Below, piece after piece: positions 42,957 through 58,993 of a stretch of DNA of 64,000 nt. The stretch is from Tistrella mobilis (GTDB lineage: Bacteria; Pseudomonadota; Alphaproteobacteria; Tistrellales; Tistrellaceae), in contig NZ_CP121017.1 of assembly GCF_041468085.1 (NCBI RefSeq), positions 847,501 to 911,500 on the forward strand. Direction: 5' to 3'. Each line of letters begins with the position of its first letter. Positions within the stretch are counted from its first letter, which is position 1. The notes under the pieces were generated by a model. The model searched no databases. It was given only the letters and a program-made list of their open reading frames with translations, and was not told where the DNA came from. The translations under genes and the position numbers were made by a program.

Positions 42957-44260
42957 CAGCGCCCGCCGCGCGACAGGCGGCCGAGATCTCGGTCGAGACG
43001 GGCGAGGGCGGCTTCGGGCGTCACCCGCCCGGCCAGCGCATCCTGGGTGCGCTGCCAGACGGCGGCCGAGAGCCGGTTATAGCCGTCGCCCGTGGCGCGG
43101 GAAGGCCGGGCGACCGCGGTTTCGAAGGTCTGGTAGAGCTGGCCGAAGAACGGGTTGGCGGCCAGAACCTCGTCATCCTTGTAAAGCGCGGGGATGGTCG
43201 GGTTGTAGGCGGCTTCGACCGCGCGGCGCTTCTGCTCGGCGGCGCCGGTCAGGAAGCGTACCAGATCCGCCGCCTCGGCCGGGTGCTTCGAATAGCGCGA
43301 GACCGCCAGATGCCAGCCGCCCAGCGTGCCGGTGGTCTTGCCCTCGGGGCCTCCCGGCGGCAGGGCGGTGACGCCGACCTTGCCCTTGACGGGGCTGTCG
43401 GCGCTTTGCGCCAGGGCCCAGGCATAGGGCCAGTTGCGCATGAACACCGCCTTGCCCGACTGGAACACGCCGCGCGCGGCCTCTTCGTCATAGGTGAGCA
43501 CGCCTTCGGGCGAGATCTTCCCCACCCAGGACGCGGCTTCGGTCAGGGCGGCCAGGGCCTTGGGGTTGTTCACCGTCACCCGGCCGTCGGCATCGACGAC
43601 GGTGCCGCCGCCATAGGCGTCGATCCATTCCAGCGCATTGCAGGTGAGGCCCTCATAGGCCCGGCCCTGCCAGACATAGCCCCAGAGATCGCTCTGCCCG
43701 GCCGCGCGTTCCTTCTGCTGGATGTCGGTCGCGATGCGGGTGAGATCGGGCCAGCTTTCGGGCGGCTGGTGGCCGTATTTCTCCAGCAGATCCTTGCGGT
43801 AGTAGAGCACGCCGGCATCGGTCCACCAGGGCATGGCGACCAGCCGGCCGTCGACGGTGTCGTTCTCGATCAGGGCCGGGAAATGCTGCGCGGGGGCATC
43901 GCCCATATGCTCCGAAAGATCGACCAGATGCGGCGCCAGCATGCCCGGCCAGACCACGTCGATCTGCAGCACGTCGATATCGTCGGCGCCGGCGCCCAGG
44001 ATCTGCTGATAGAGCGCGAAGCGTTCATTCGAGGAATTGGGGGTCGAGACGATGTCGACCGTGTTGCCGGTGGTCCTCTCCCAGGCGGCGACCCCGTCGC
44101 GGCAGAGCGACAGCTCGACACCGATTGCCCCGCAGGAAATGGTGAGCGAGACAGGCTCGGCCCGGGCCTCCCCGCCCGCGCCGGCACTCGCGGCGGCAGC
44201 CAGCAGCATGCCCGCCGCAACCGTGATGCGGCGCATGTCCCGCCGCGTCGTCATGACCAT
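42953..44260 (-). CDS. Sugar ABC transporter substrate-binding protein (ThuE/trehalose-maltose type)
   Basis: A 435-residue periplasmic protein. A Tat-like start (MTTRRDMRRITVAAGMLLAA) leads to a cleavable signal ending near GEARAEP. The mature part follows the MalE-like CUT1 pattern: VSLTISCGAIGVELSLCRDG, VDIVSTPNSSNERFALYQQI, DVLQIDVVWPGMLAPHLVDL and GTLGGWHLAVSRYSKHPAEA. The whole pattern resembles ThuE of rhizobia, which binds trehalose and maltose; sugar specificity here is inferred from family memory. It heads a four-gene operon (binding protein, two permeases, ATPase). Confidence 0.88.
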
Positions 44261-44699
44261 CGGTCCAGATCCGCTTCTGAATTCGCCGGTGTGCCCGTGC
44301 CGGCCTCGTCATCCTCCGAAACATCCATCGCGACCACGTGATGTCGCGCTCAACTCTGCGCACGACCAGCGGGGGCCGGGTCTTCACCCCCGTCTGGCGG
44401 ACGGGGGCCGAGACCCGGAAAACTCACGCGGGCGATCCCTTTTGTTCTATCCCGATCGGGCGGAAAGTCCACCCATGATCTTCCTCCGACGCGACGGTTA
44501 TGCTGCCCGAGCGACCCGGAGAGAGGCGGATGATCGCGCTATTCATTCCTGCGGGGATATGTCGATCGCGATGGTTTCTTGACAGGGACAATCGGCCGGC
44601 GTTCGATGAAACGTCGTCAGGTGATCATGTGGTGAAAGCTTTGGCGACGCGCCTGCCGGCGCGACGGTCGCGCCGCACTGCAATTCATCGATCTACGAA
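44261..44699. other. Region between the sugar operon and the CRISPR locus
   Basis: No gene is supported on either strand. It should hold the promoter of the minus-strand sugar operon. A plus-strand TTGACA at 44579-44584 could be a -35 element for cas9 transcription, but the matching -10 is poor. Confidence 0.4.
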
Positions 44700-44840
44700 T
44701 GAGCATCTGAAGGATTCAGCATCTCATCAATGTATTGATGAGGAATTTCCCCCATTGGTTGCCCAATGGGGGATGATCCTTCACAGAGAAACCTTACGGT
44801 AAGTCTGTTACCGTGGCTTCCCTACCGATTTGCCAAGCAC
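44700..44840 (-). ncRNA. tracrRNA of the type II-C system
   Basis: Read on the minus strand, the transcript would begin near 44840, carry the anti-repeat (44834-44810) and then a tail rich in hairpins: CTTA-CCG-TAAG (a small stem at 44792-44802), a perfect 10-bp stem with GCAA tetraloop (CCCCCATTGG and CCAATGGGGG, 44749-44772), an 8-bp stem CTCATCAA-TACA-TTGATGAG (44723-44742) and CTGAA-TCC-TTCAG (44707-44719). Anti-repeat followed by stable stem-loops is the known tracrRNA layout. No T tract marks the 3' end, so its limits are estimates. A TTGACT at 44869-44864 on the minus strand is a possible -35. It is divergent from cas9 and lies in its 5' untranslated region. Confidence 0.85.
44810..44834 (-). 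repeat. Anti-repeat matching the CRISPR repeat
   Basis: Across 25 bases the plus strand here equals the crRNA-sense repeat at 23 positions (shared core CCCTACCGATTTGCC). Both differences (A for G at 44810, C for T at 44817) become G-U pairs in the RNA duplex, so all 25 positions can pair. Confidence 0.92.
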
Positions 44841-44888
44841 AGTTGGCCTCGGGGGCGCGGGGAAGTCAAGCGAGATCTTGGAGGGAGC

Positions 44889-47800
44889 ATGATCAACGAA
44901 CGCCTGACGTTCGGAATCGATCTTGGCATCGGATCATGTGGCTGGGCGGTGCTGCGACATGCGGATGCCGCCGGGGAGCCGGGGGTGATCGAGGGTCTGG
45001 GAAGCTGGTGCTTCGACGTGCCCGAGACGAGCAAGGAGCGTATCCCGACCAATCAGGTCCGGCGCAGCAATCGTCTGCTCCGCCGGGTCATCCGGCGGCG
45101 ACGCAATCGGATGGCAGAGATCAGGCGCCTGTTTCATGCACAGGGCCTGCTGCCGTCAGCGGATGAGGACGCCCTGAAGCGTCCACGCCTCGACCCCTGG
45201 GAATTGCGGGGCCGGGGGCTCGATCAGTGCCTGACCGCCGAAGAATTCGCGGTCGCGCTTGGTCATATTGCCAAGCATCGGGGCTTCCGTTCCTCCGCCA
45301 AACGCAAGGCCGCGAATACCAGTGGAGATGACAGCAAGATGCTGTCGGCTCTTCAGGTGACGAGGGAGCGTCTTGCCCGCTATCGCACCGTCGGAGAGAT
45401 GTTCGCGCGCGATCCGGAGTTCAGTGCAAGGCGCCGGAACCGCGACGGCATTTTTGACCGGACCGTCGCGCGGGACGATCTGATCCATGAAGTCGGCAAG
45501 CTGTTCAAAGAGCAGAGGGCGCGCGGTAGCGCCTTCGCATCGCCTGATCTGGAGGCGGATTTCAACGCGATCGCCTTTCGTCAGGCGGAGATGCAGGACA
45601 GTGAACGTCTCGTCGGGAATTGCCCGTTCGAGCGTGACGAAAAGCGCGCCGCCAGGTGGGCGCCCTCGTTCGAACGTTTCCGCCTGCTGACCCGGTTGAT
45701 CAATTTGCGGATCGCGACGTCGTCCGGGGAGCGCAGGCTCACCCCGGACGACCTGGCCCGCGTCTCGGCCGAACTCGGCGCGACCGCGAAACTCCCGGTC
45801 AGCCGCGTGCGCGCCTTGATCGGTCTTCTGCCGGACGAGCGTTTCACCACCATTCGCGTTGAGGACGAGGACCGCGACATCGTTGCCCGAACCGGCGAAG
45901 CCGCACCCGGCAGCTGGCGGTTGCGCAAGGCCCTGGGCGAGGCGTTGTGGGCAGAGATGCAGGCCCGACCCGATCAGCTGGACGCCATTGCACATGTCCT
46001 GAGCTTCTTCGAAGCCACGGCGAAGATCCGGTCGGAACTCGACGGGCTGGGGTTGCCCACGGCCGTGATCGAGGCCCTGGACCGGGCACTCGACGACGGG
46101 TGGTTTGCGAAGTTCAAGGGCGCCGGACACATCTCCGCCAAGGCCTGTCGCAGGCTGTTACCCCATCTGCAACAGGGGCATCGCTATGATCAGGCCTGCC
46201 GGCTTGCAGGCTATGACCATGCCGCATCGACCCTGTCGCACACGGCCCAGGTGGTCAGCAAGGCCGGGTTCAACGCATTGGTGACGGAGCTGGGCGAGAG
46301 TATTGCCAATCCCATCGCCCGCAAGGCGCTGACCGAGGGGCTGAAGCAGATCCGCGCGATGTGTGCCCGCTGGGGCCTGCCCGGCGCCATCCATATCGAA
46401 CTGGCGCGAGAGGTGGGCAACAGCATCGAAAAGCGCAAAGAACTGGAGAAACAACAGGAGACGACGACAAAGCGCCGCCAGACCGAGCGGGACGAAATCC
46501 GCGAGCTGCTGGATCTGGAGGACGTCGACGATGACACCCTGCTCCGCTACCGTTTGTGGAAAGAACAGGCCGGCAAATGCCTGTATACCGGCAGGGACAT
46601 TCATGTCCGGCAGCTGATCGCCACCGACAACAGCGTGCAGGTGGACCACATCCTGCCCTGGTCCCGGTTCGGCGATGACAGCTTCAACAACAAGACCTTG
46701 TGCCTTGCGAGCGCAAATCAGCGCAAGCGCGGGCAGACACCCTGGGAGTGGTTCAGCCGGACTGAAACGCCTGAAGCCTGGGATATCTTCGCAAGGCGGG
46801 TCGAGACCTCGAAGGATCTGCGTGGCTTCAAGAAGCGCAACCTGCTTTTGAAAAGCGCCGACGAGGTCGCGCAGCGCTTCCGCAGCCGCAATCTGAACGA
46901 TACCCGCTATGCGGCCCGGCTGCTGGCCGAAGCCGCAAAACTGTTCTATCCGGCCGGCGACCGGCAGGAGAAGGACGGGCGCCGCCGGGTTCTGACCCGC
47001 CCCGGGCCGCTGACCGCGGCGCTGCGCCATGCCTGGGGGCTGGAGAAGCTGAAGAAGGCCGACGGCAAGCGGGTGAGCGACGACCGCCACCACGCCCTGG
47101 ATGCACTTGCGGTGGCGGCGATCAGCGAAAGGGAGGTTCAGCGCCTCACCCGGTCTTTCCAGGAGTGGGAGCAGCAGGGGCTTGCCCGCCCGCTGCGCCA
47201 TGTGGCGCCACCCTGGCCCGGCTTCCGCGACGATGTTCTGGCGGCCTATGCACAGGCTTTCGTTGCCCGCCCTGAGCGTCGTCGGGCGCGGGGCAAGGGG
47301 CATGATGCGACCATCCGTCAGGTCGTCGGGCAGGGCCCGGAGGCGCAGGTGTTCGAGCGCCGCGCCCTGGCGGATCTCAAGGAAGCCGATCTCGACCGGG
47401 TCAAGGATCCTGAGCGCAATCAGGCGATCATCGAGGCCGTGCGCGCCTGGATCCGCGCGGGGCGGCCGGCCGATGCACCGCCGCGGTCACCGCGCGGCGA
47501 CGTCATCGTCAAGCTGCGGATGGCGCCGGCCAAAAAGATCAGGCCGGCGGTGCCGGTGCGGGGCGGAACCGCCGACCGCGGCGACATGGTGCGTATCGAC
47601 GTCTTCACCAGGCCGAACCGCAAGGGCCGGGACGAATGGTATCTGGTGCCGATCTATCCCCATCAGGTGATGAATCGGAAGGCCTGGCCGCATCCGCCGA
47701 TGCATTTCGTCGTTCCAGGCAAAGATGAAACTCATTGGGAAAAAATTAGCGATGCACATGTCTTCAAATTCAGTATCTATCCACGAAGTTACGTAAAATT

Positions 47801-48038
47801 AATTAAGACAGATGGTGATGTGTTCGAAGGATATTTTTCCGGGATGGATCGATCGAAAGCGTCGTTTCGTATCTTCTCCCACAGCAGTGCCGCCAATTTT
47901 GTAAAGGGTCTGGGCACAAAGACATTGGCTGAGATTAAGAAATTCAATGTTGATCGCTTTGGGATTCGCACTGAAGTGAAGAGTGAGGTCAGAACATGGC
48001 ATGGAGAGGTGTACACATCTCCCGTCCCGCCCGATTGA
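44889..48038 (+). CDS. cas9: Cas9 endonuclease, type II-C
   Basis: A 1049-residue RNA-guided nuclease of the compact II-C size. RuvC-I is FGIDLGIGSCGWAVL with D11; the Arg-rich bridge helix is at ~58-80 (RRVIRRRRNRM); RuvC-II is IHIELAREVG with E504; HNH is VDHILPWSRFGDDSFNNKTL with catalytic H587 and N610 (SANQRK); RuvC-III is HHALDALAVAA with H735 and D738. These are the counterparts of D16, E504, H588, N611, H723 and D726 in Neisseria Cas9, so all catalytic residues are present. The C-terminal ~300 residues are the WED/PAM-interacting region and end with the family's GLGTKTLAEIKKFNVDRFGI. The start at 44889 has GGAGGGAGC upstream and begins at the RuvC strand; the open frame upstream is an artefact crossing the tracrRNA. 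cas1 starts 43 bases before the stop. Confidence 0.97.
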   Translation: MINERLTFGIDLGIGSCGWAVLRHADAAGEPGVIEGLGSWCFDVPETSKERIPTNQVRRSNRLLRRVIRRRRNRMAEIRRLFHAQGLLPSADEDALKRPRLDPWELRGRGLDQCLTAEEFAVALGHIAKHRGFRSSAKRKAANTSGDDSKMLSALQVTRERLARYRTVGEMFARDPEFSARRRNRDGIFDRTVARDDLIHEVGKLFKEQRARGSAFASPDLEADFNAIAFRQAEMQDSERLVGNCPFERDEKRAARWAPSFERFRLLTRLINLRIATSSGERRLTPDDLARVSAELGATAKLPVSRVRALIGLLPDERFTTIRVEDEDRDIVARTGEAAPGSWRLRKALGEALWAEMQARPDQLDAIAHVLSFFEATAKIRSELDGLGLPTAVIEALDRALDDGWFAKFKGAGHISAKACRRLLPHLQQGHRYDQACRLAGYDHAASTLSHTAQVVSKAGFNALVTELGESIANPIARKALTEGLKQIRAMCARWGLPGAIHIELAREVGNSIEKRKELEKQQETTTKRRQTERDEIRELLDLEDVDDDTLLRYRLWKEQAGKCLYTGRDIHVRQLIATDNSVQVDHILPWSRFGDDSFNNKTLCLASANQRKRGQTPWEWFSRTETPEAWDIFARRVETSKDLRGFKKRNLLLKSADEVAQRFRSRNLNDTRYAARLLAEAAKLFYPAGDRQEKDGRRRVLTRPGPLTAALRHAWGLEKLKKADGKRVSDDRHHALDALAVAAISEREVQRLTRSFQEWEQQGLARPLRHVAPPWPGFRDDVLAAYAQAFVARPERRRARGKGHDATIRQVVGQGPEAQVFERRALADLKEADLDRVKDPERNQAIIEAVRAWIRAGRPADAPPRSPRGDVIVKLRMAPAKKIRPAVPVRGGTADRGDMVRIDVFTRPNRKGRDEWYLVPIYPHQVMNRKAWPHPPMHFVVPGKDETHWEKISDAHVFKFSIYPRSYVKLIKTDGDVFEGYFSGMDRSKASFRIFSHSSAANFVKGLGTKTLAEIKKFNVDRFGIRTEVKSEVRTWHGEVYTSPVPPD

Positions 48039-48889
48039 GCTTTCGGGACGGGCAACTGATCGTTGCCCAGGAGGATGGCGAGGTTTTTCTGGCGATCGAG
48101 GACATTGCCTGGCTGGTTCTCGACACGCCGCAGACCAGTGTCACCGGCGCGCTGCTCTCCGCCCTGGCCGGGCGGGGGGTGGCGATGATCGTACCGGATG
48201 CGAAACATCATCCGGCCGGTGTGCTGCTCCCCTTCCATCAGCATCATGCGCAGGCCCATGTGGCGCATATGCAGGTGGGCATCGGCCTGCCGCTGAAAAA
48301 GCGGCTGTGGCAGGCCCTGGTGGTCGCCAAGATCAGCAATCAGGCGGCGCTGCTGGATCGGCTGGGCCGGCCCCGGGCCAGGGCGCTTTCGGCAATGGCG
48401 GGGCGGGTCGGGTCGGGCGATCCCGACAACATCGAAGCGCAGGCCGCCCGCGTCTACTGGCCGGATCTGTTTCAGGCCTTCACCCGCGGCAACGAGGTCG
48501 ACCGTCGCAATGCCCTGCTGAATTACGGCTATGCCGTCGTCAGGGCGGCACTTGCCCGCGCCTGTACGGCATCGGGGCTGTTGCCGGCTTTCGGTGTTCA
48601 TCATGCCTCGCGCACCAATGCCTTCAATCTGGTCGACGACCTGATAGAGCCGTTCCGGCCCTTCGTCGACCGGGCGGTGCACGATCTGGCGCGGGACGAG
48701 GCCCGAGGGGAGCTGACCGTCGACGACCGCCGCAGCATGGCCGGCATTCTCAATCATCCGGCGGCGATCGGGCCGGAGCGCATGACCCTGCTGGCGGCGA
48801 CGGAAATCGTCGCGGCCTCGATGGTGCGCGCGATGGAGAACAACAGCGCCGCCCTGCTTCAGATGCCCGGCTGGGCCGATGAAGGGTAG
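47996..48889 (+). CDS. cas1: Cas1 integrase
   Basis: A 297-residue spacer-integration nuclease. Active-site residues fit the family: E147 (DPDNIEAQAARVYW), H203 (FGVHHASRTNAFNL) and E218 (LVDDLIEPFRP). The N-terminal beta domain runs to ~85, the helical catalytic domain to the end. The ATG at 47996 is within the last codons of cas9 (43-base overlap in another frame), and cas2 follows after 9 bases, so the three genes are one operon. There is no csn2 or cas4, as expected for subtype II-C. Confidence 0.95.
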   Translation: MAWRGVHISRPARLSFRDGQLIVAQEDGEVFLAIEDIAWLVLDTPQTSVTGALLSALAGRGVAMIVPDAKHHPAGVLLPFHQHHAQAHVAHMQVGIGLPLKKRLWQALVVAKISNQAALLDRLGRPRARALSAMAGRVGSGDPDNIEAQAARVYWPDLFQAFTRGNEVDRRNALLNYGYAVVRAALARACTASGLLPAFGVHHASRTNAFNLVDDLIEPFRPFVDRAVHDLARDEARGELTVDDRRSMAGILNHPAAIGPERMTLLAATEIVAASMVRAMENNSAALLQMPGWADEG

Positions 48890-48898
48890 GGGCGTGCG

Positions 48899-49228
48899 AT
48901 GAAAGCCGAGGATGTCCGTTTCATGTGGTTGATGGTATTCTTCGACCTGCCGGTAAGAACCCGGGAGCAGCGCCGCAGGGCCACCCGCTTCAGGAAAGCG
49001 CTGAAGGATGACGGCTTCCTGATGCTGCAGTTCTCGGTCTATGCGCGTGTCTGCCGCGGGCAGGACGCGGTCGACAAGCATATCAGGCGCGTCCGCGTCA
49101 GCCTGCCGCGGGAAGGCAGCGTGCGAACGCTCCAGATCACGGACAAACAATATGCGCGTATGGAACTCATGCTCGGTCTCGCTTCAAAAACCGAGCGGCT
49201 GGGCTCTGATCAGATGGTCCTGCTGTGA
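48899..49228 (+). CDS. cas2: Cas2
   Basis: A 109-residue ferredoxin-fold protein that pairs with Cas1 to insert spacers. The first strand ends with the conserved Asp (FMWLMVFFDLPVR, D16), followed by RFRKALKDDGFLMLQFSVYA and RTLQITDKQYARME. The stop codon lies within the left arm of a 14-bp inverted repeat, 58 bases before the first CRISPR repeat. Confidence 0.95.
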   Translation: MKAEDVRFMWLMVFFDLPVRTREQRRRATRFRKALKDDGFLMLQFSVYARVCRGQDAVDKHIRRVRVSLPREGSVRTLQITDKQYARMELMLGLASKTERLGSDQMVLL

Positions 49229-49264
49229 TTTCGGCGCGGAGAGTCCGGCGGAAATCACAGCAGG
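49219..49264. terminator. Perfect 14-bp inverted repeat between cas2 and the array
   Basis: CCTGCTGTGATTTC (49219-49232) and GAAATCACAGCAGG (49251-49264) are exact inverted copies around 18 bases. It covers the cas2 stop. As a two-way hairpin it could end both the cas operon and the opposing crRNA transcript; it could also be part of the leader seen by Cas1-Cas2. Confidence 0.65.
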
Positions 49265-49286
49265 ATCAATCTCTTATGAGCGAGGT

Positions 49287-50246
49287 AACCTACCACTGGC
49301 AAATCGGTAGGGAAACCACGGCGATCAGCGGGGCGACGTCGGAGCGCATCTGAACCTACCACTGGCAAATCGGTAGGGAAACCACGGCGGTACCTCGACG
49401 TCGTCGGCGTCCACCGCAAACCTACCACTGGCAAATCGGTAGGGAAACCACGGCTGACACCTTCCGTGCGCCGGCCCGGGCCGAAACCTACCACTGGCAA
49501 ATCGGTAGGGAAACCACGGCCAGGCACATCGGGCACTGTATCTGCCGCGTAACCTACCACTGGCAAATCGGTAGGGAAACCACGGCTGTCGATGCGGCCG
49601 TAGCCGCTGGCGATCGAACCTACCACTGGCAAATCGGTAGGGAAACCACGGCCGAGAATGCAGTGTGGATCAGCCCGACAGCAACCTACCACTGGCAAAT
49701 CGGTAGGGAAACCACGGCGATCAAGGCGCGGGTGCGGCTTTCCGCGGTAACCTACCACTGGCAAATCGGTAGGGAAACCACGGCCGTGACGTGCACGCCG
49801 GAGCGCGACGGCGTAACCTACCACTGGCAAATCGGTAGGGAAACCACGGCCCTCGGTTCATGCCGCCGTGCCGCGCTGCGAACCTACCACTGGCAAATCG
49901 GTAGGGAAACCACGGCCTCTCATGAGGACGGCTGGCTTCGCGGAGAAACCTACCACTGGCGAATCGGTAGGGAAACCACGGCTCCGGCCGGTCATCGCCG
50001 CCCCGTGGCTCCAACCTACCACTGGCAAATCGGTAGGGAAACCACGGCCCGCATTCCCGCCTCGGGACGAGGACGACAAACCTACCACTGGCAAATCGGT
50101 AGGGAAACCACGGCACCCGGGCTCGGGGGACGATACTGGGCCGGAACCTACCACTGGCAAATCGGTAGGGAAACCAAGGCCCAGCGGGCGGGGCGCTGGC
50201 CACGGAATTAAACCTACCACTGGCAAATCGGTAGGGAAACCAAGGC
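49287..50246 (-). CRISPR. CRISPR array, 15 repeats and 14 spacers
   Basis: A 36-base repeat recurs every 66 bases (spacers all 30 bases). In crRNA sense (minus strand) it begins GCCGTGGTTTCCCTACCGAT and ends TTTGCCAGTGGTAGGTT; the two pieces overlap at the T. The ends (TACC near the 5' half and GGTA near the 3' end) allow a partial stem. Thirteen repeats carry CCACGGC at the plus-strand end; the two at 50145 and 50211 have CCAAGGC. The repeat at 49947 has a single A-to-G change. Complementarity to the anti-repeat fixes transcription on the minus strand, towards cas2. The repeat is close to the type II-C repeat I recall from Azospirillum. Spacer targets were not searched. Confidence 0.98.
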
Positions 50247-50256
50247 CCGGTCTGTC

Positions 50257-50294
50257 AGCCGGAGAGGGCGCCGTCCGGCGGGGCCTCTCCGGCT
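50257..50294. terminator. Hairpin between the dehydrogenase gene and the array
   Basis: AGCCGGAGAGG (50257-50267) pairs with CCTCTCCGGCT (50284-50294), an 11-bp perfect stem; the loop holds a second small stem (CGCCG and CGGCG). It could stop minus-strand transcription from the dehydrogenase gene before it reads into the array. No T tract follows. Confidence 0.5.
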
Positions 50295-50302
50295 GTTGCG
50301 CA

Positions 50303-51370
50303 TCAGGCGTAATGCCGCCCATAGCGGTTGGCGAGCAGGGCGTCGGCGTCGATGTGGTCGTGGCGGACCAGGCCCTTGCGGGGCAGGCGGCCTTCGGCCA
50401 GGAGGTCGATGACCGCGGCGACGCCGGCGGCGGTGGTCAGGCGGATGGCGGACATGTGCATGCCGTCGACCTCGCGGGCGCCGACTTCGCGGCTCCACGA
50501 GCGGCGGGTCAGGCGGCCGTCGGCGATGCCGTCGACCGAGACCGAGAGCACCACCACATCCTGGTCCGTGGTCGGCACGGCGGCTTCCAGAACCTGTTCC
50601 AGCAGCTCGCGCCGGTCGCGCAGCTTCAGGTCTTCGAGCAGAAGCTTCATGATTGCGCGATGACCAGGATAGCGCAGGGTCTTGTAATCGAGCGTGCGGA
50701 CCTTGCCTTCGAAAGCATCGGCAAGCATGCCGAGCCCGCCCGAGGTGTTGAAGGCCTCGTAAGTGGTGCCGTGGAGGATGACGGTTTCTTCGCCTTCCAG
50801 CGGCAGGACTTCGCGGCGCTCGCCGTTCCAGATCGCTTCGCAGGGGTTGCAGTATTCATTGACCACGCCGGCGGTCGACCAGGTCATGGCATAGCCCAGC
50901 GGGCCGGTCGGATGGGCGGGCAGCGCGCCCACGCGGATGCGTGCGGCATCGACCGTCTCGAAGCCATGGGCCAGACCATGGGCCATCACGCAGACCACGC
51001 CCGGAGCCAGGCCGCACTGGGGGACGAGCGCGGTTTCCGCATCGGCGGCAAGCGCCGCCACGGCGCGGGTGGAGCGGACATCCTCGGTCAGGTCGAAATA
51101 GTGCAGGCGGTTGCGCACCGCCGCCTCGGCGATCTGCGGGCAGAGATGATAGGGGCCGGCGGCCAGCACCGCGTCATGGCCCTGCATCACGGCATCGAGG
51201 GCGGCCGGATCGGCGGCATCGGCCTCGATACGGCGGATGCGCGACGAGAGCTGACGGGCTTCGACGCCGAAGCTGCGGTCGGCGAGGGTGATCTCATGGG
51301 CGCCGCCGGCGGCCATCATATGGGCGACGGCGGTGCCGATGCGGCCGGCGCCGAGGATCAGGATGCGCAT
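50303..51370 (-). CDS. Saccharopine-dehydrogenase-family NAD(P)-binding protein
   Basis: A 355-residue enzyme. The Rossmann motif MRILILGAGRIGTAVAHMMA opens the protein; ADRSFGVEARQLSSRIRRIE and AALDAVMQGHDAVLAAGPYH follow, as in saccharopine dehydrogenase and lysine 6-dehydrogenase relatives. CGLAPGVVCVMAHGL and NTSGGLGMLADAFEGKVRTL are typical of the C-terminal domain. A role in lysine or another amino acid's breakdown is inferred from the divergent Lrp-type regulator. The gene points at the CRISPR array, 56 bases from its last repeat. Confidence 0.87.
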   Translation of the reverse strand: MRILILGAGRIGTAVAHMMAAGGAHEITLADRSFGVEARQLSSRIRRIEADAADPAALDAVMQGHDAVLAAGPYHLCPQIAEAAVRNRLHYFDLTEDVRSTRAVAALAADAETALVPQCGLAPGVVCVMAHGLAHGFETVDAARIRVGALPAHPTGPLGYAMTWSTAGVVNEYCNPCEAIWNGERREVLPLEGEETVILHGTTYEAFNTSGGLGMLADAFEGKVRTLDYKTLRYPGHRAIMKLLLEDLKLRDRRELLEQVLEAAVPTTDQDVVVLSVSVDGIADGRLTRRSWSREVGAREVDGMHMSAIRLTTAAGVAAVIDLLAEGRLPRKGLVRHDHIDADALLANRYGRHYA

Positions 51371-51473
51371 GGATCTGGTCTCCCTTGGGGGCTGTTGACT
51401 GGGTCCCTGGGGCTGATCATTGCGGCTGGGAACAGGCGGGCGCCACTTGACGAAACGGCTAATTTCGGGCCGT

Positions 51474-51494
51474 TAATAGCCGAATCGGCTATTA
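51474..51494. promoter_or_regulatory. Perfect palindrome upstream of the Lrp gene
   Basis: TAATAGCCGA-A-TCGGCTATTA is a 10-1-10 perfect dyad, with a related half-site ACGGCTAAT at 51455-51463. It lies between the divergent dehydrogenase and Lrp genes, 23 bases before the Lrp start, and is a likely Lrp operator. Confidence 0.72.
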
Positions 51495-51517
51495 CGGGTC
51501 AGAAAGGAGCGACGGCG

Positions 51518-51955
51518 ATGGCAGGGCCGGAACTGGATGCGGTGAACCGGGCGCTGATCGCGGCCCTGAAAGTGGACGCACGTATGCCGATCGCGGCGCT
51601 CGCCCGGATCGTCGGCCTGTCGCGCACGGCCCTGCGTCACCGGCTGGCGGTTCTGGAGACGACGGGGGTGATCCGCGGCTATCGGGTGGAGCTGGGCGAG
51701 CGGCTGACCCCGAAGGTCAGGGCGCATGTGATGATCGAACTGCGCCCCAAGCTGGGGCGGCAGGTCATCCAGCAGCTGAAGGCCTGCCCGGAGGTGAATT
51801 CGCTGCACGCGGTCTCGGGCCCCTTCGACCTGCTGGCCGAAGTGGGCTGCGAGGATCTGGACCGGCTGAACGCCCTGATCGACCGGATCGCCGCGTTCCA
51901 CGGGGTGGAACGCACGCGGTCGGCGATCGTGCTGGAAGACTGTTTCGAAAGATGA
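51518..51955 (+). CDS. Lrp/AsnC-family regulator
   Basis: A 145-residue regulator. The N-terminal helix-turn-helix is LDAVNRALIAALKVDARMPI through LSRTALRHRLAVLETTGVIR. The C-terminal RAM (ACT-like) domain runs from ~65 (KVRAHVMIELRPKLGRQVIQ and VNSLHAVSGPFDLLAEVGCE). The start at 51518 has AGAAAGGAG upstream; the long open frame running in from the CRISPR array is an artefact. It probably controls the divergent dehydrogenase gene in response to an amino acid. Confidence 0.92.
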   Translation: MAGPELDAVNRALIAALKVDARMPIAALARIVGLSRTALRHRLAVLETTGVIRGYRVELGERLTPKVRAHVMIELRPKLGRQVIQQLKACPEVNSLHAVSGPFDLLAEVGCEDLDRLNALIDRIAAFHGVERTRSAIVLEDCFER

Positions 51956-51970
51956 GACGTCGGTGCGGCC

Positions 51971-52516
51971 TCAGGCCGCACCGAAGGCCGGCGGATAGGT
52001 GAGGGCGCCCCGGCCGTCGCCCAGGATGTCGGGGGTGAGTTCCAGCGCCATCAGATGGGGGCCGGACCAGGGGCAGCGGAACAGGGCGGCGCGGTCGACT
52101 GAGAAGCCGAAGCGGGTGTAGAAGGCGGGGTCGCCCAGAACGAAGACCGCTTCGGCCCCGCCCGCGCGCAGCCGCGACAGGCCGAAGCGGATCAGCATGG
52201 AGGCGATGCCGAGCCGGCGGTGATCGGGCAGGACCGAGACCGGCGCCAGGAAGCGGCCGCGGATCGGATCATCCCGGTCGTCGCGGCCATCAAGGCGGAT
52301 GTCGAGCGGGCCGAACAGAATCTGGCCGAGCAGCTGCCCGGCCCCGTCTTCGGCGATCAGCGACAGGGAGACGTCGCCGGCGGCGGTGAGATTGCGGACC
52401 AGATCGGCCTCGTCGGCGCCGCCGAAGGCGGTGGTGATCGCCCGAGCCAGGGGATCGGCATCGGCCGGTTCCGCGCGGCGCATCCGGAAACCGTCCGGCA
52501 GCCCTGCGGCGGTCAT
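51971..52516 (-). CDS. GNAT N-acetyltransferase
   Basis: A 181-residue acetyltransferase. The family strand MRRAEPADADPLARAITTAF opens it, with the acetyl-CoA loop LPDHRRLGIASMLIRFGLSR near residue 100 and the YhbS-type end AVFVLGDPAFYTRFGFSV. Substrate unknown. Its start overlaps the stop of the double-cupin gene by 4 bases, so the two are coupled. It converges on the Lrp gene with 15 bases between stops. Confidence 0.88.
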   Translation of the reverse strand: MTAAGLPDGFRMRRAEPADADPLARAITTAFGGADEADLVRNLTAAGDVSLSLIAEDGAGQLLGQILFGPLDIRLDGRDDRDDPIRGRFLAPVSVLPDHRRLGIASMLIRFGLSRLRAGGAEAVFVLGDPAFYTRFGFSVDRAALFRCPWSGPHLMALELTPDILGDGRGALTYPPAFGAA

Positions 52517-53196: not shown

Positions 53197-53413
53197 CGTT
53201 CGGATTTCCTCCCGTTGTCGTTGGACCGGTAGAAACAGGTCTTCGTGAAATGGGGATGAAGACTTCGCGAATCAAACGGCTGCGACCGGTTTTCGATGCG
53301 AGGTTATCGATTCGTTAATCAACCTGATTGTTCCATGCGGGGCGATGCCGGCCGGGGCGCTCTGCCGCCTCAGGCCCCGTATTTGCAACCGCCCCCGGGA
53401 GACAGCAGCAATT

Positions 53414-55099
53414 ATGTTCAGGCTTACCCAATCGATAGGCGCGAGGTTGATCCTCGCCTTCGCCACGCTCACCGCCGTGGTGATCGTGACCGGTATCGTC
53501 GGCCTTTTCCAGCTTGGCGCGCTCAACACGGCCGCGATGGATCTGAGCGACAACCGGGTTCCCAGCCTTCAGGTCATCTCGCGGCTGTCCGCCAGCTTTC
53601 AGGAGCACCGGGTCGCCGTGGCCGGCGCCGTGCTGGAAGGCACCGAGCAGAACCGCCGGCCGTTGCTGGCGCGCGTTGCCGCGGCGTCGCGCGCCGTGGA
53701 GGAGAGCTTCGCAGCCTATGGCGGGCTGATCTCCGACGAAGAGGACCGGCGCCTGTTCGAGCGTGCGCAGGCAGCCTGGATGCCCTACAGGCAGGGGAGC
53801 GACCGCCTGCTGGCCAGGCTGGCGGAAAACGATCTGCTGGGCGCCCAGCAGATCTATCGCGGCGAGACCCGCGATGCCCGGGTGACCCTGGGCCAGGCCC
53901 TGGACGCGCTGACCCGCCACAACACCGAGGGGGCGGATGCTTCCGGCCTGCGCGCCGACGGCGCCTATGCGACCGCCCATACCGTGCTGATCGTGGCCAT
54001 GGTGGCCGGTGTGCTGATCGCCATCGCGGCGACGCTGCTGATGATCCGCAGCGTATCGACGCCGGTGAAGCGAATGACGGTCGCGATGCGCCGCCTGGCG
54101 GATCGCGACACCGGGGTGGTGATCCCCGGCGCCGATCGCGGCGACGAGATCGGCGAGATGGCCAAGGCGGTTGAAACCTTCCGCGACGGCATGATCCGCG
54201 CCGACCGGCTGGCGGCGGAACAGGAAGAAGCCCGGGCCGCCCAGGAGGCGCAGCGGCACCGGCGCGAGGCGCTGACCCAGGGCTTCGTCGACCAGGTGGC
54301 CGGCATCGTGACCACGCTGTCGAGCGCCACCGAACAGGTCCGGGGCAGCGCCGACGAGCTGTCGCGCACGGCCGAGGACCAGAGCGGCCGCAGCACCACG
54401 GTGGCGGCCGCGGCCGAACAGGCGACCGCCAATGTTCAGACGGTTGCCACCGCGGCCGAGGAACTCGCCGCCTCGATCCGCGAGGTGGGTGCGCGCACGG
54501 CCGAGACCGCCGATGTCACCCGCCGCGCGGTGACCGAGGCGGAAGCGACCGATGCGACGGTGCAGGAATTGTCGGGCAGCGCCCAGAAGATCGGTGACGT
54601 GATCGAACTGATCCAGCAGATCGCGGCCCAGACCAATCTGCTGGCGCTGAATGCGACCATCGAGGCGGCCCGCGCCGGCGAGGCCGGCAAGGGCTTTGCG
54701 GTGGTGGCATCGGAGGTGAAGAACCTGGCGACCCAGACCGCCCGGGCGACCGAAGAGATCCAGGTGCAGATCAACGCCATGACCGGGGCCACGGGGCGCA
54801 CGGTGGAGGCGATCCGGTCGATTTCGGGCACGATCGGCAAGGTGGGGGCGCTGACCACCGCGGTCGCCTCGGCCGTGGAAGAACAGGTGGCGGCAACCGC
54901 CGAGATTGCGCGCAACACGCAGCAGGCATCTTCGGGGACATCCGAGGTGCTGCAGTCGATCACCGGCATCGCCGATGCCGCCGGCCATACCGGCCAGGCG
55001 GCGGAAGAGATGAATGCCGCCTCCGGCGCCCTGGCCGACCGGACCCGCGAGTTGAAGCGGGTGGTCGACAGCTATGTGGCCGAGATCGCCGCGATCTGA
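53414..55099 (+). CDS. Methyl-accepting chemotaxis protein 1 (4HB-HAMP-MCP)
   Basis: A 561-residue chemoreceptor. TM1 lies at ~10-30, the periplasmic four-helix-bundle sensor at ~32-188, TM2 at ~190-212 and HAMP at ~212-265 ([20 protein letters not shown]). The cytoplasmic signalling tip is [32 protein letters not shown], with methylation helices on both sides. No C-terminal CheR pentapeptide. It is the first of four tandem paralogues; bases 54086-54214 and 54677-54945 are identical to the matching parts of the second gene. The start at 53414 puts TM1 directly after the N-terminus. A hairpin terminator follows. Confidence 0.93.
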
Positions 55100-55121
55100 A
55101 CCACGCCATAGCCGGATAAAA

Positions 55122-55156
55122 AGCGCCGTCGCGAAGTCACTCGCGGCGGCGCTTTC
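55122..55156 (+). terminator. Terminator after chemoreceptor 1
   Basis: AGCGCCGTCGCGA (55122-55134) pairs with TCGCGGCGGCGCT (55141-55153), 13 bp with one G-T, loop AGTCAC, then TT. An A run precedes it, so it may work in both directions. The next 200 bases are AT-rich. Confidence 0.7.
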
Positions 55157-55356
55157 CATTCTGGCGAAGGTCGTGAGCAGATGGAGATTTTTAGCGGGGA
55201 TATTCTTTTACCAGAAACATCATCGGATCCCATAAGACGAGCATGTCAACACACTGTTCATGCAAATTGCAGCATGTTTTAGCGAATTATTAATTTCCTC
55301 AAACGCTTATTGGCATTTCCATGTTGGATCAACAATCCGCGTCAGGAAGACAGTCA

Positions 55357-57042
55357 ATGTCAGCTTCACAATTATCAATCGGAGCCAGACTGATCGTGGC
55401 CTTCACCCTGTTGACGATGGTGGTGATCGTCAGCGGCGTGTTCGGCCTGCTGCAGCTTTCGGCGATGAACGACCGGACGGCAGAGCTTCGCCAGGAACAT
55501 GTGCCGAGCCTGATGGTGCTGGGCGAGATCAATGACGAGGTGCTGCAGCACCGGATCATGGCGGCCAACCTGATCCTGGCGAACGACCCGGCGAAGACCA
55601 CCGGCTATCGCGAGCAGCTGGACCGGCTGACGGCAGCCGTCGGGACGGCCATCGGAAACTATGAGCCGCTGGTGTCGGGAGAGGCGGATCGGCGTAGCTT
55701 CGAGGGGCTGAAGGTTGCCTGGACGGGCTATCAGGGCGTCACGGCCCGGCTGATCGCCGCGGTCTCCGCCGGCGACCGGCTGACCGCATGGCGGCTGTTC
55801 GAGGAGGATGCCCGAGGCGCGCGCGAAGTGCTGACCCGGAGGATGGGGGAGCTGCGACAGACAACCATCGACGACGCCGAGGCGGCCGGGCGGGCGAGTA
55901 TCGCCACCTATGCCACCGCCAGAACGCTGGTGATCGCGGCCATCATCATCGGTGCGCTGATCGCCATCGCGGCGACGCTGCTGATGATCCGCAGCGTGTC
56001 GACGCCGGTGAAGCAGATGACTGCGGCCATGCGCCGCCTGGCGGATCGCGACACCGGGGTGGTGATCCCCGGCGCCGATCGCGGCGACGAGATCGGCGAG
56101 ATGGCCAAGGCGGTTGAAACCTTCCGCGACGGCATGATCCGCGCCGACCGGCTGGCGACGGAACAGGAAGAAGCCCGGGCCGCCCAGGACGCCCAGCGGC
56201 GCCGGCGCGAGGAACTGACCCGGGGCTTCGTCGACCAGGTGGCCGGCATCGTGACCACGCTGTCGAGCGCTACCGAACAGGTCCGGGGCAGCGCCGACGA
56301 GCTGTCGCGCACGGCCGAGGACCAGAGCGGCCGCAGCACCACGGTGGCGGCCGCGGCCGAACAGGCGACCGCCAATGTTCAGACGGTTGCGACCGCATCG
56401 GAAGAGCTGGCGGCGTCGATCCGCGAGGTGGGCGCGCGTACGGCCGAGACCGCCGATGTCACCCGCAGCGCGGTGACCGAAGCGGAAGCGACCGATGCGA
56501 CGGTGCAGGAGCTGTCGACCAATGCCCAGAAGATCGGCGATGTGGTGCTGCTGATCCAGCAGATCGCGGCCCAGACCAATCTGCTGGCGCTGAACGCGAC
56601 CATCGAGGCCGCGCGTGCAGGCGAGGCCGGCAAGGGCTTTGCGGTGGTGGCATCGGAGGTGAAGAACCTGGCGACCCAGACCGCCCGGGCGACCGAAGAG
56701 ATCCAGGTGCAGATCAACGCCATGACCGGGGCCACGGGGCGCACGGTGGAGGCGATCCGGTCGATTTCGGGCACGATCGGCAAGGTGGGGGCGCTGACCA
56801 CCGCGGTCGCCTCGGCCGTGGAAGAACAGGTGGCGGCAACCGCCGAGATTGCGCGCAACACGCAGCAGGCATCTTCGGGGACATCCGAAGTGCTGCACTC
56901 GATCACCGGCATCGCCGATGCCGCCGGCCGGACCGGCCAGGCGGCGGAAGAGATGAATGCTGCCTCGGGCGCGTTGGCGGAGCGCACCCGCGAGTTGAAG
57001 CGGGTGGTGGACCAGTATGTGGCAGAGATTGCCCAGGTATGA
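55357..57042 (+). CDS. Methyl-accepting chemotaxis protein 2 (4HB-HAMP-MCP)
   Basis: A 561-residue paralogue of the receptor upstream. I start at 55357 ([22 protein letters not shown] site) and not the ATG at 55321, which would add a 12-residue polar leader. The sensor domain (~30-185) differs strongly from receptor 1, while HAMP ([20 protein letters not shown]) and the signalling domain are almost the same at the DNA level. The tip is [20 protein letters not shown]. No CheR pentapeptide. It is preceded by an AT-rich gap where its own promoter probably lies. Confidence 0.93.
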
Positions 57043-57077
57043 TCTGTCGGCGATAAATCCTTCAGAAATCAATGGAG

Positions 57078-57107
57078 ATGCCGCTGTGATGTCTGTCGCA
57101 GCGGCAT
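57078..57107 (+). terminator. Hairpin after chemoreceptor 2
   Basis: ATGCCGCTG (57078-57086) pairs with CAGCGGCAT (57099-57107). No T tract follows at once. The rest of the gap to 57307 is very AT-rich (TTGTATTTTGGAATAAAC and similar), in contrast with the genes around it. Confidence 0.5.
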
Positions 57108-57307
57108 TGAGTCTGATATGTTCATGAATATTGATGCAATACGCATTCGTTTGAATTGCCGTTCGGCAAAATCGTCTGATGAATTTTGTATTTTGGAATA
57201 AACTTTCCCATATTTATTATCACTTCATTAACATGGATGCTGCATAAATATTTCACGACCCCGCTTCGTTGCCGCAAGTTGCAACTCGTTTTCCGAGATC
57301 GTTCGCG

Positions 57308-58993
57308 ATGTCAATGTCGTCTGTTTCGATCGGCAAAAAGCTGATCATCGCCTTTGCCACCCTGACCACCGTTATTCTGCTGACCGGCGTGTTCGGCTTC
57401 TCGCAGCTGGCGACGCTGGAAGATGCGTCCTATGAACTGCGCGACAACCGCATCCCCAGCCTTAAGATCATTGCCGAGGCGAGCAATGTGATACAGAACC
57501 ACCGGATTGCGGTGAGCCGGCTGGTGGTTGATGATGACCCGGCAAATCGTCCGGCCCATCTGGAGCAGATACGGCATCAGGTCGATGCTTTTGCGGCCGC
57601 GGCCAAAGCCTATGACCCGCTGATCGCCGATGATGCCGAGGCCCGGATGGTGAAGCAGGTCGGCGCGGCCCGGGTGCGCTATCTGGACGCAACAGAGAGG
57701 CTGATCGCCGCCGTACAGGCGGGCAATGCGGCGCAGGTGAAAGCGCTGTATCTGGGCGAGAGCGGGGCTGCGCGCGAGGTGGTGGTGGCGGAGCTGGACA
57801 AGCTGCGCCAGATGAATATCGACAGTGCGGCCACGGCCGGTACCCGCTCGCGGGCAGCCTATGAGAGCGCGATCACCGTGCTGGGGATTGCGATGGTGGT
57901 CGGGCTGGTGATCGCGGTTGCGGCGACCCTTGTGATGACCCGCAGCGTGTCGACGCCGGTGCGGAAGATGACCGAGGCGATGCGGCGGCTGGCCGAGCGG
58001 GACACCGGCGTCGAGATTCCGGGTGCCGATCGTGGTGACGAGATCGGGGCCATGGCCAAGGCGGTTGAAACCTTCCGCGACGGCATGATCCGCGCCGACC
58101 GGATGGCGGCTGAGCAGGAGCGGGCCCGCGCCGATGGAGAGGCGCGGCGCCGGCGACGCGAGGAACTGACCGAGGGCTTCGTGTCGCGGATCGCCACCAT
58201 CGTCACCACGCTGTCGGGGGCATCGGAACAGGTACGCAGCAATGCCGACGGGCTGGCGCGCACGGCCGACGATCAGTCGGCGCGCAGCACCACCGTCGCC
58301 GCCGCTGCGGAAGAGGCGAGCGCCAATGTCCAGACCGTGGCCACGGCATCCGAGGAACTGGCCGCCTCGATCCGCGAGGTGGGGGCGCGCACCGCAGAGA
58401 CCGCCGATGTGACCCGAGCGGCCGTGCGCCAGGCCGAGGCGACCGACGGCACGGTGCATGAACTGGCAGGCAATGCCCGCAAGATCGGCGACGTGATCGA
58501 GTTGATCCAGCAGATCGCGGCCCAGACCAATCTGCTGGCACTGAATGCGACCATCGAGGCCGCGCGTGCAGGCGAGGCCGGCAAGGGCTTTGCGGTGGTG
58601 GCATCGGAGGTGAAGAACCTGGCGACCCAGACCGCCCGGGCGACTGAGGAAATCCAGGCCCAGATCAACGCCATGACCGGAGCGACCGGCCGTACGGTCG
58701 ACGCCATCCGCGAGATTTCGGGCACCATCACCCGGGTGGGCGCGCTGACCACGGCGGTGGCATCCGCCGTTGAACAGCAGGTGGCGGCGACCGCCGAAAT
58801 CGCCCGCAACACCCAGCAGGCGTCGTCCGGCACGTCGGAGGTGCTGGAATCGATCGCCGGCATCGCCTCTGCCGCAGGGCTGACCGGCCGGTCGGCCGAG
58901 GAGATGAGCGCGGCATCACGCGCGCTGGCGGGCAAGACCCGGGAGCTGAAAGAGGTGGTTGACCGTTATGTCGACGAGGTGGCCAAGGTCTGA
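57308..58993 (+). CDS. Methyl-accepting chemotaxis protein 3 (4HB-HAMP-MCP)
   Basis: A 561-residue paralogue. TM1 is [20 protein letters not shown], the four-helix sensor occupies ~30-190 and TM2 is at ~190-212 ([20 protein letters not shown]). HAMP ([20 protein letters not shown]) and signalling tip ([20 protein letters not shown]) follow. It shares shorter identical DNA blocks with receptor 2 around the tip. Start ATG at 57308, with another in-frame ATG two codons on. No CheR pentapeptide. Confidence 0.92.

Follow-up and report, generated by a model that had tools for sequence, protein, structure and literature searches.

The window analysed here, by which we mean the whole stretch of 64,000 nucleotides from a Tistrella genome, carries at 44.7-50.25 kb a complete type II-C CRISPR-Cas9 locus made up of tracrRNA, cas9, cas1, cas2 and the array. 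With a probability of about 0.9, we regard it as an ordinary locus of its type, in which the crRNAs are read from the minus strand toward cas2, new spacers are inserted beside cas2 and each repeat carries a probable promoter. The initial annotation of this DNA had described the array polarity as reversed, in the sense of abnormal. This view does not hold, since crRNA reading toward the cas genes together with acquisition at that same end is the known layout, and indeed the rule, in type II-C, of which reversed orientation and 3′-end acquisition are published properties (PMC8092290, PMC12638026, PMC6737040, PMC6008519). The annotation was thus correct on a geometry that was already known and mistaken on its unusualness, and the cost that it derived from it is unsupported.

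The genes cas9 (44889-48038, plus strand, approximately 1049 aa; NCBIfam TIGR01865 Cas9, E 4e-175), type II cas1 (47996-48889, plus strand; NCBIfam TIGR03639 cas1_NMENI, 280 bits with a cut-off of 120 bits) and cas2 (48899-49228, plus strand; NCBIfam TIGR01573) follow each other in a row, with neither csn2 nor cas4 among the genes of the operon, and both cas1 and cas2 are intact within the window. The ATG at 44889 was chosen as the likely start of cas9 from its position after the tracrRNA. The type II-C assignment rests on this gene set, on the type II (NMENI) Cas1, on an anti-repeat matching the array repeat and on the array itself, with its repeats of 36 nt and spacers of 30 nt.

The anatomy of the array (49287-50246, crRNA on the minus strand) was re-read directly, base by base, and comprises 15 repeats of the sequence AACCTACCACTGGCAAATCGGTAGGGAAACCACGGC and 14 spacers, all different, at an exact spacing of 66 nt; every repeat ends in TGGTAGGTT, an extended -10-like sequence, and the genome holds no second array with the AACCTACCACTGGCAAATCGGTAGGGAAACCACGGC repeat. 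The repeats near cas2 are identical to one another. Repeat comparison identified three variants, namely repeat 11 (49947-49982), carrying A15G, and repeats 14 (starting at 50145) and 15 (starting at 50211), which together span 50145-50246, flank what is probably the oldest spacer and both carry C33A, corresponding to G4U in the crRNA repeat. The two variant repeats that the initial annotation had placed farthest from cas2 are therefore there as described, at 50145 and 50211, but the A15G change in repeat 11 had been overlooked. The predicted energy of pairing with the tracrRNA drops from -58.6 kcal/mol for the usual repeat to -54.4 for the A15G repeat and to -52.8 for the C33A repeats. Because the repeat stands 3′ of its own spacer in a mature type II crRNA, the variant C33A handle would be expected in the crRNA of spacer 14, the putative oldest one, only.

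In order to assign the crRNA strand, we relied on the tracrRNA, whose predicted gene lies at 44732-44850 on the minus strand (ends approximate), divergent from cas9, with the anti-repeat at 44811-44835 followed by tail hairpins. Pairing between anti-repeat and repeat was dropped as a proof of strand on its own, since both orientations pair (minus/minus, -58.6 kcal/mol; plus/plus, -47.9 kcal/mol). The sequence beyond the anti-repeat is more informative: on the minus strand it reads GTAACAGA...GAAGGATCATCCC(hairpin)GGGGGAAATTCC, whereas the plus-strand reading enters cas9. Most of the close relatives that we compared have the same tail layout ahead of cas9, and 9 of the 17 predicted pairs of the tail consensus, built from 15 sequences, show compensatory changes. 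Since these covarying hairpins are on the minus strand, we infer that the crRNAs are minus-strand transcripts, opposite to the cas operon and read toward cas2, and hence that the variant repeats form the 5′ end of the pre-crRNA; on both points the earlier reading was right. Its argument that anti-repeat pairing requires minus-strand crRNA was only partly so: the strand is supported by the tracrRNA tail, and the word "requires" is too strong for a repeat whose plus/plus pairing is also stable.

A conserved leader of 58 nt (49229-49286) links cas2 to the array, and spacers are probably inserted where leader and array meet, at 49286/49287. Fifty-one of its 58 positions are identical to those of T. 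mobilis KA081020-065, and its layout is shared by Brucella endophytica, a Rhodospirillum MAG, Gluconacetobacter, Sphingomonas and Bombella, whereas the cas2-distal flank could be aligned within Tistrella only, and there more poorly than the leader. The two flanks differ also in GC content (0.55 for the leader vs 0.77 for the far flank), and the interval from the array end at 50246 to the next gene (50303-51370) is just 56 bases long, GC-rich and with a hairpin in it; this gene is on the minus strand and pointed at the array.

An inverted repeat at 49215-49268, which runs over the cas2 stop into the leader, is predicted to form a strong, conserved hairpin. Its consensus contains 21 pairs in 11 sequences, 9 of them with compensatory changes; the structure occurs in alphaproteobacterial genera and at the same place in the related loci L014-L023. 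The 90 nt preceding repeat 1 have a folding z of -7.5, and folds with z below -2 were found in 65% of the cas2-side flanks (52 loci) vs 13% of the 39 far flanks. The plain explanation of this hairpin would be a terminator of the cas operon, though without a clear T-run; perhaps it could also terminate the converging pre-crRNA. A palindrome in the Riemerella leader has been noted earlier (PMC5006608).

The decay of terminal repeats in relatives points to the same end of the array. Among 39 complete cas2-adjacent arrays, our own included, the terminal repeats were more degenerate on the cas2-distal side in 17 and on the proximal side in one, with 21 ties, which gives a one-sided P of 7e-5 when kinship is ignored, the 39 arrays not being independent of each other. 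Three related arrays had been candidates for a degenerate repeat beside cas2; L036 was discarded as a run of N and L067 as a boundary artefact, leaving L089. Published experiments on other II-C systems likewise put insertion beside cas2 (PMC6008519). Taken together, leader conservation, repeat decay in relatives and these experiments make acquisition next to cas2, where the precursor has its 3′ end, the most probable arrangement, as the initial annotation had proposed; for our own strain this insertion end is an extrapolation from them. The support that the annotation had drawn from the two terminal variant repeats, as marks of the oldest end, is weak by itself: adjacent repeats sharing a derived base are compatible with growth at either end, and the C33A repeats are thus insufficient on their own to identify the old end. 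As outgroups carry C at this position and A is derived, C33A was dropped as an age marker on its own.

Comparison of spacers among strains was less informative. Across the three Tistrella genomes, the third of which lacks a II-C cas1, no spacers were common to the arrays, and none were shared among Bombella species. Outside Tistrella, the AACCTACCACTGGCAAATCGGTAGGGAAACCACGGC repeat was not found in a class-wide sample of 385 genomes, and it was absent from viral contigs. Three P. multocida plasmid loci were also compared: the spacer unique to the three-spacer locus lies on its cas2 side, and of the two further spacers of that locus each of the other loci retains one; these differences could fit insertion beside cas2, with deletions as an alternative cause. 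We also looked for protospacers that would reveal the side of the PAM, expected 3′ of the protospacer on the crRNA-like strand, and obtained only chance-level matches in phage searches with our own array and those of L014 and L027, and no match clearly above chance in genomes of the genus Tistrella. Spacers or blocks of spacers duplicated within single arrays were observed in the II-C relatives L055, L066 and L073.

At the 3′ end of the repeats, on the minus strand, the motif TGnTAnnnT is present in 15/15 cases and nowhere else in 49229-50302. In 39 distinct 36-nt repeats, TAnnnT stands at the 3′ end of 36 (shuffle mean, 0.7) and the longer TGnTAnnnT at that of 19 (shuffle mean, 0.07); TAnnnT is near-invariant in 36-nt II-C repeats across many phyla. 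Bacteroidota repeats of 46-48 nt have no TAnnnT end, so the motif is unlikely to be a general need of the integrase, and the difference suggests two promoter habits in II-C. The C. jejuni repeats carry an extended -10 (GGTAAAAT) at the matching place (PMC4283603), and a consensus promoter scan returned nothing at threshold. On the strength of the motif, we propose that this extended -10-like sequence supplies one putative promoter per repeat. Repeat-internal promoters are known in Neisseria and Campylobacter, not in all II-C systems.

The initial annotation had concluded that the benefit of expressing the newest spacer first would be lost. This does not follow: the promoter-like TGnTAnnnT is kept in each of the 15 repeats, and the newest spacer would thus be served by a putative promoter of its own, with all the other putative ones upstream of it. 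It may thus suffer no disadvantage, and perhaps gains read-through from every other repeat. The stronger proposal, that accumulated read-through makes the newest spacer the most transcribed one and that the hairpin ends this transcription before it can enter the cas operon in antisense, is a tentative one, to which we would give clearly less than an even chance of being right.

These observations bear on three other explanations. The least probable, to our mind very improbable, is that the polarity is the conventional one, with growth and promoter at 50246, an old cas2 end and C33A as a recent variant copied forward. Position 33 is C in all 7 repeats of T. mobilis KA081020-065 and in nearly all related repeats, and a single change to the derived A33, once copied forward, would give just the two adjacent A33 repeats observed; however, it is the cas2 side that has the conserved leader, 17 of the 18 informative arrays have their degenerate repeats cas2-distally, the II-C experiments found insertion beside cas2, and the 56 bases before 50303 leave little space for a leader and a promoter. 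Slightly less improbable is the version implied by the initial annotation, namely insertion beside cas2 with a single promoter at 50246, which would put the newest spacer last in the transcript and give it the weakest expression. It agrees with the geometry found, and read-through from the minus-strand gene at 50303-51370 could give such a precursor, but it leaves unexplained a motif that ends every one of the repeats where C. jejuni has its extended -10 and that is conserved in 36-nt II-C repeats.

That the array has stopped acquiring spacers, so that neither end is new, we consider unlikely as well, if a little less so than either of these. It finds some support in the closest known system, the II-C locus of plasmid pTM3 (NC_017958) of T. 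mobilis KA081020-065, with an identical repeat, an approximately 91% identical locus and near-identical tracrRNA and leader. As deposited, the cas1 of this plasmid locus (9001-9892 of our extract L025) is broken by a frameshift; either adaptation may have been lost on pTM3 or the frameshift may be a sequencing error. In the window, in contrast, cas1 and cas2 are intact, and the mutual identity of the repeats near cas2 also argues against an array at rest. The pTM3 array has 7 repeats, none of them variant, and no spacers in common with ours. Window positions 43001-52500, which take in the locus and its flanks, run collinear with NC_017958 at approximately 90% identity, in a contig of 4.9 Mb on one side and a plasmid of 1.13 Mb on the other.

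According to the preferred reading of an ordinary type II-C locus, the tracrRNA would be a minus-strand transcript of the region immediately before cas9, and the array would likewise be read on its minus strand, in the direction of cas2, to give the crRNAs. Cas1-Cas2 would integrate each new spacer at the repeat nearest cas2, adjoining the conserved leader, and old spacers and decayed repeats would shift to the 50246 end, the 5′ end of the precursor. The extended -10-like sequence with which each repeat ends would most likely start a short crRNA in every spacer, and expression would then be independent of the distance to one leader promoter, with the newest spacer perhaps favoured; promoter activity and expression order are here deduced from the motif and its position.

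The II-C systems of Neisseria meningitidis and Campylobacter jejuni are alike in having cas9-cas1-cas2, an array opposite to the cas genes and an extended -10 in each repeat (PMC3936727; PMC4283603), but the Tistrella repeat is GC-rich and its putative promoter has a weaker -10-like TAGGTT. Similar to our locus are also Riemerella anatipestifer CRISPR1, where new spacers are found at the cas2/leader end (PMC6008519), and the II-C array of Flavobacterium columnare, transcribed toward its variable end (PMC8092290); both differ in having the longer Bacteroidota repeats described above.

Recognising this layout keeps a normal II-C arrangement from being taken as an anomaly. Standard orientation programs cope poorly with II-C arrays (PMC12638026), and the locus offers a worked example of orienting one from the strand on which the tracrRNA tail lies, the conservation of the leader and repeat decay in relatives. 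II-C possibly holds subgroups differing in the acquisition end (PMC12638026), which makes a strain-level check in Tistrella still worthwhile, and the ranking of expression along an array whose putative promoters all point to the newest spacer is a directly testable question. Elsewhere in the window, at 53345-58993, the open reading frame list shows a tandem of three similar chemoreceptor-like (methyl-accepting chemotaxis protein) genes.
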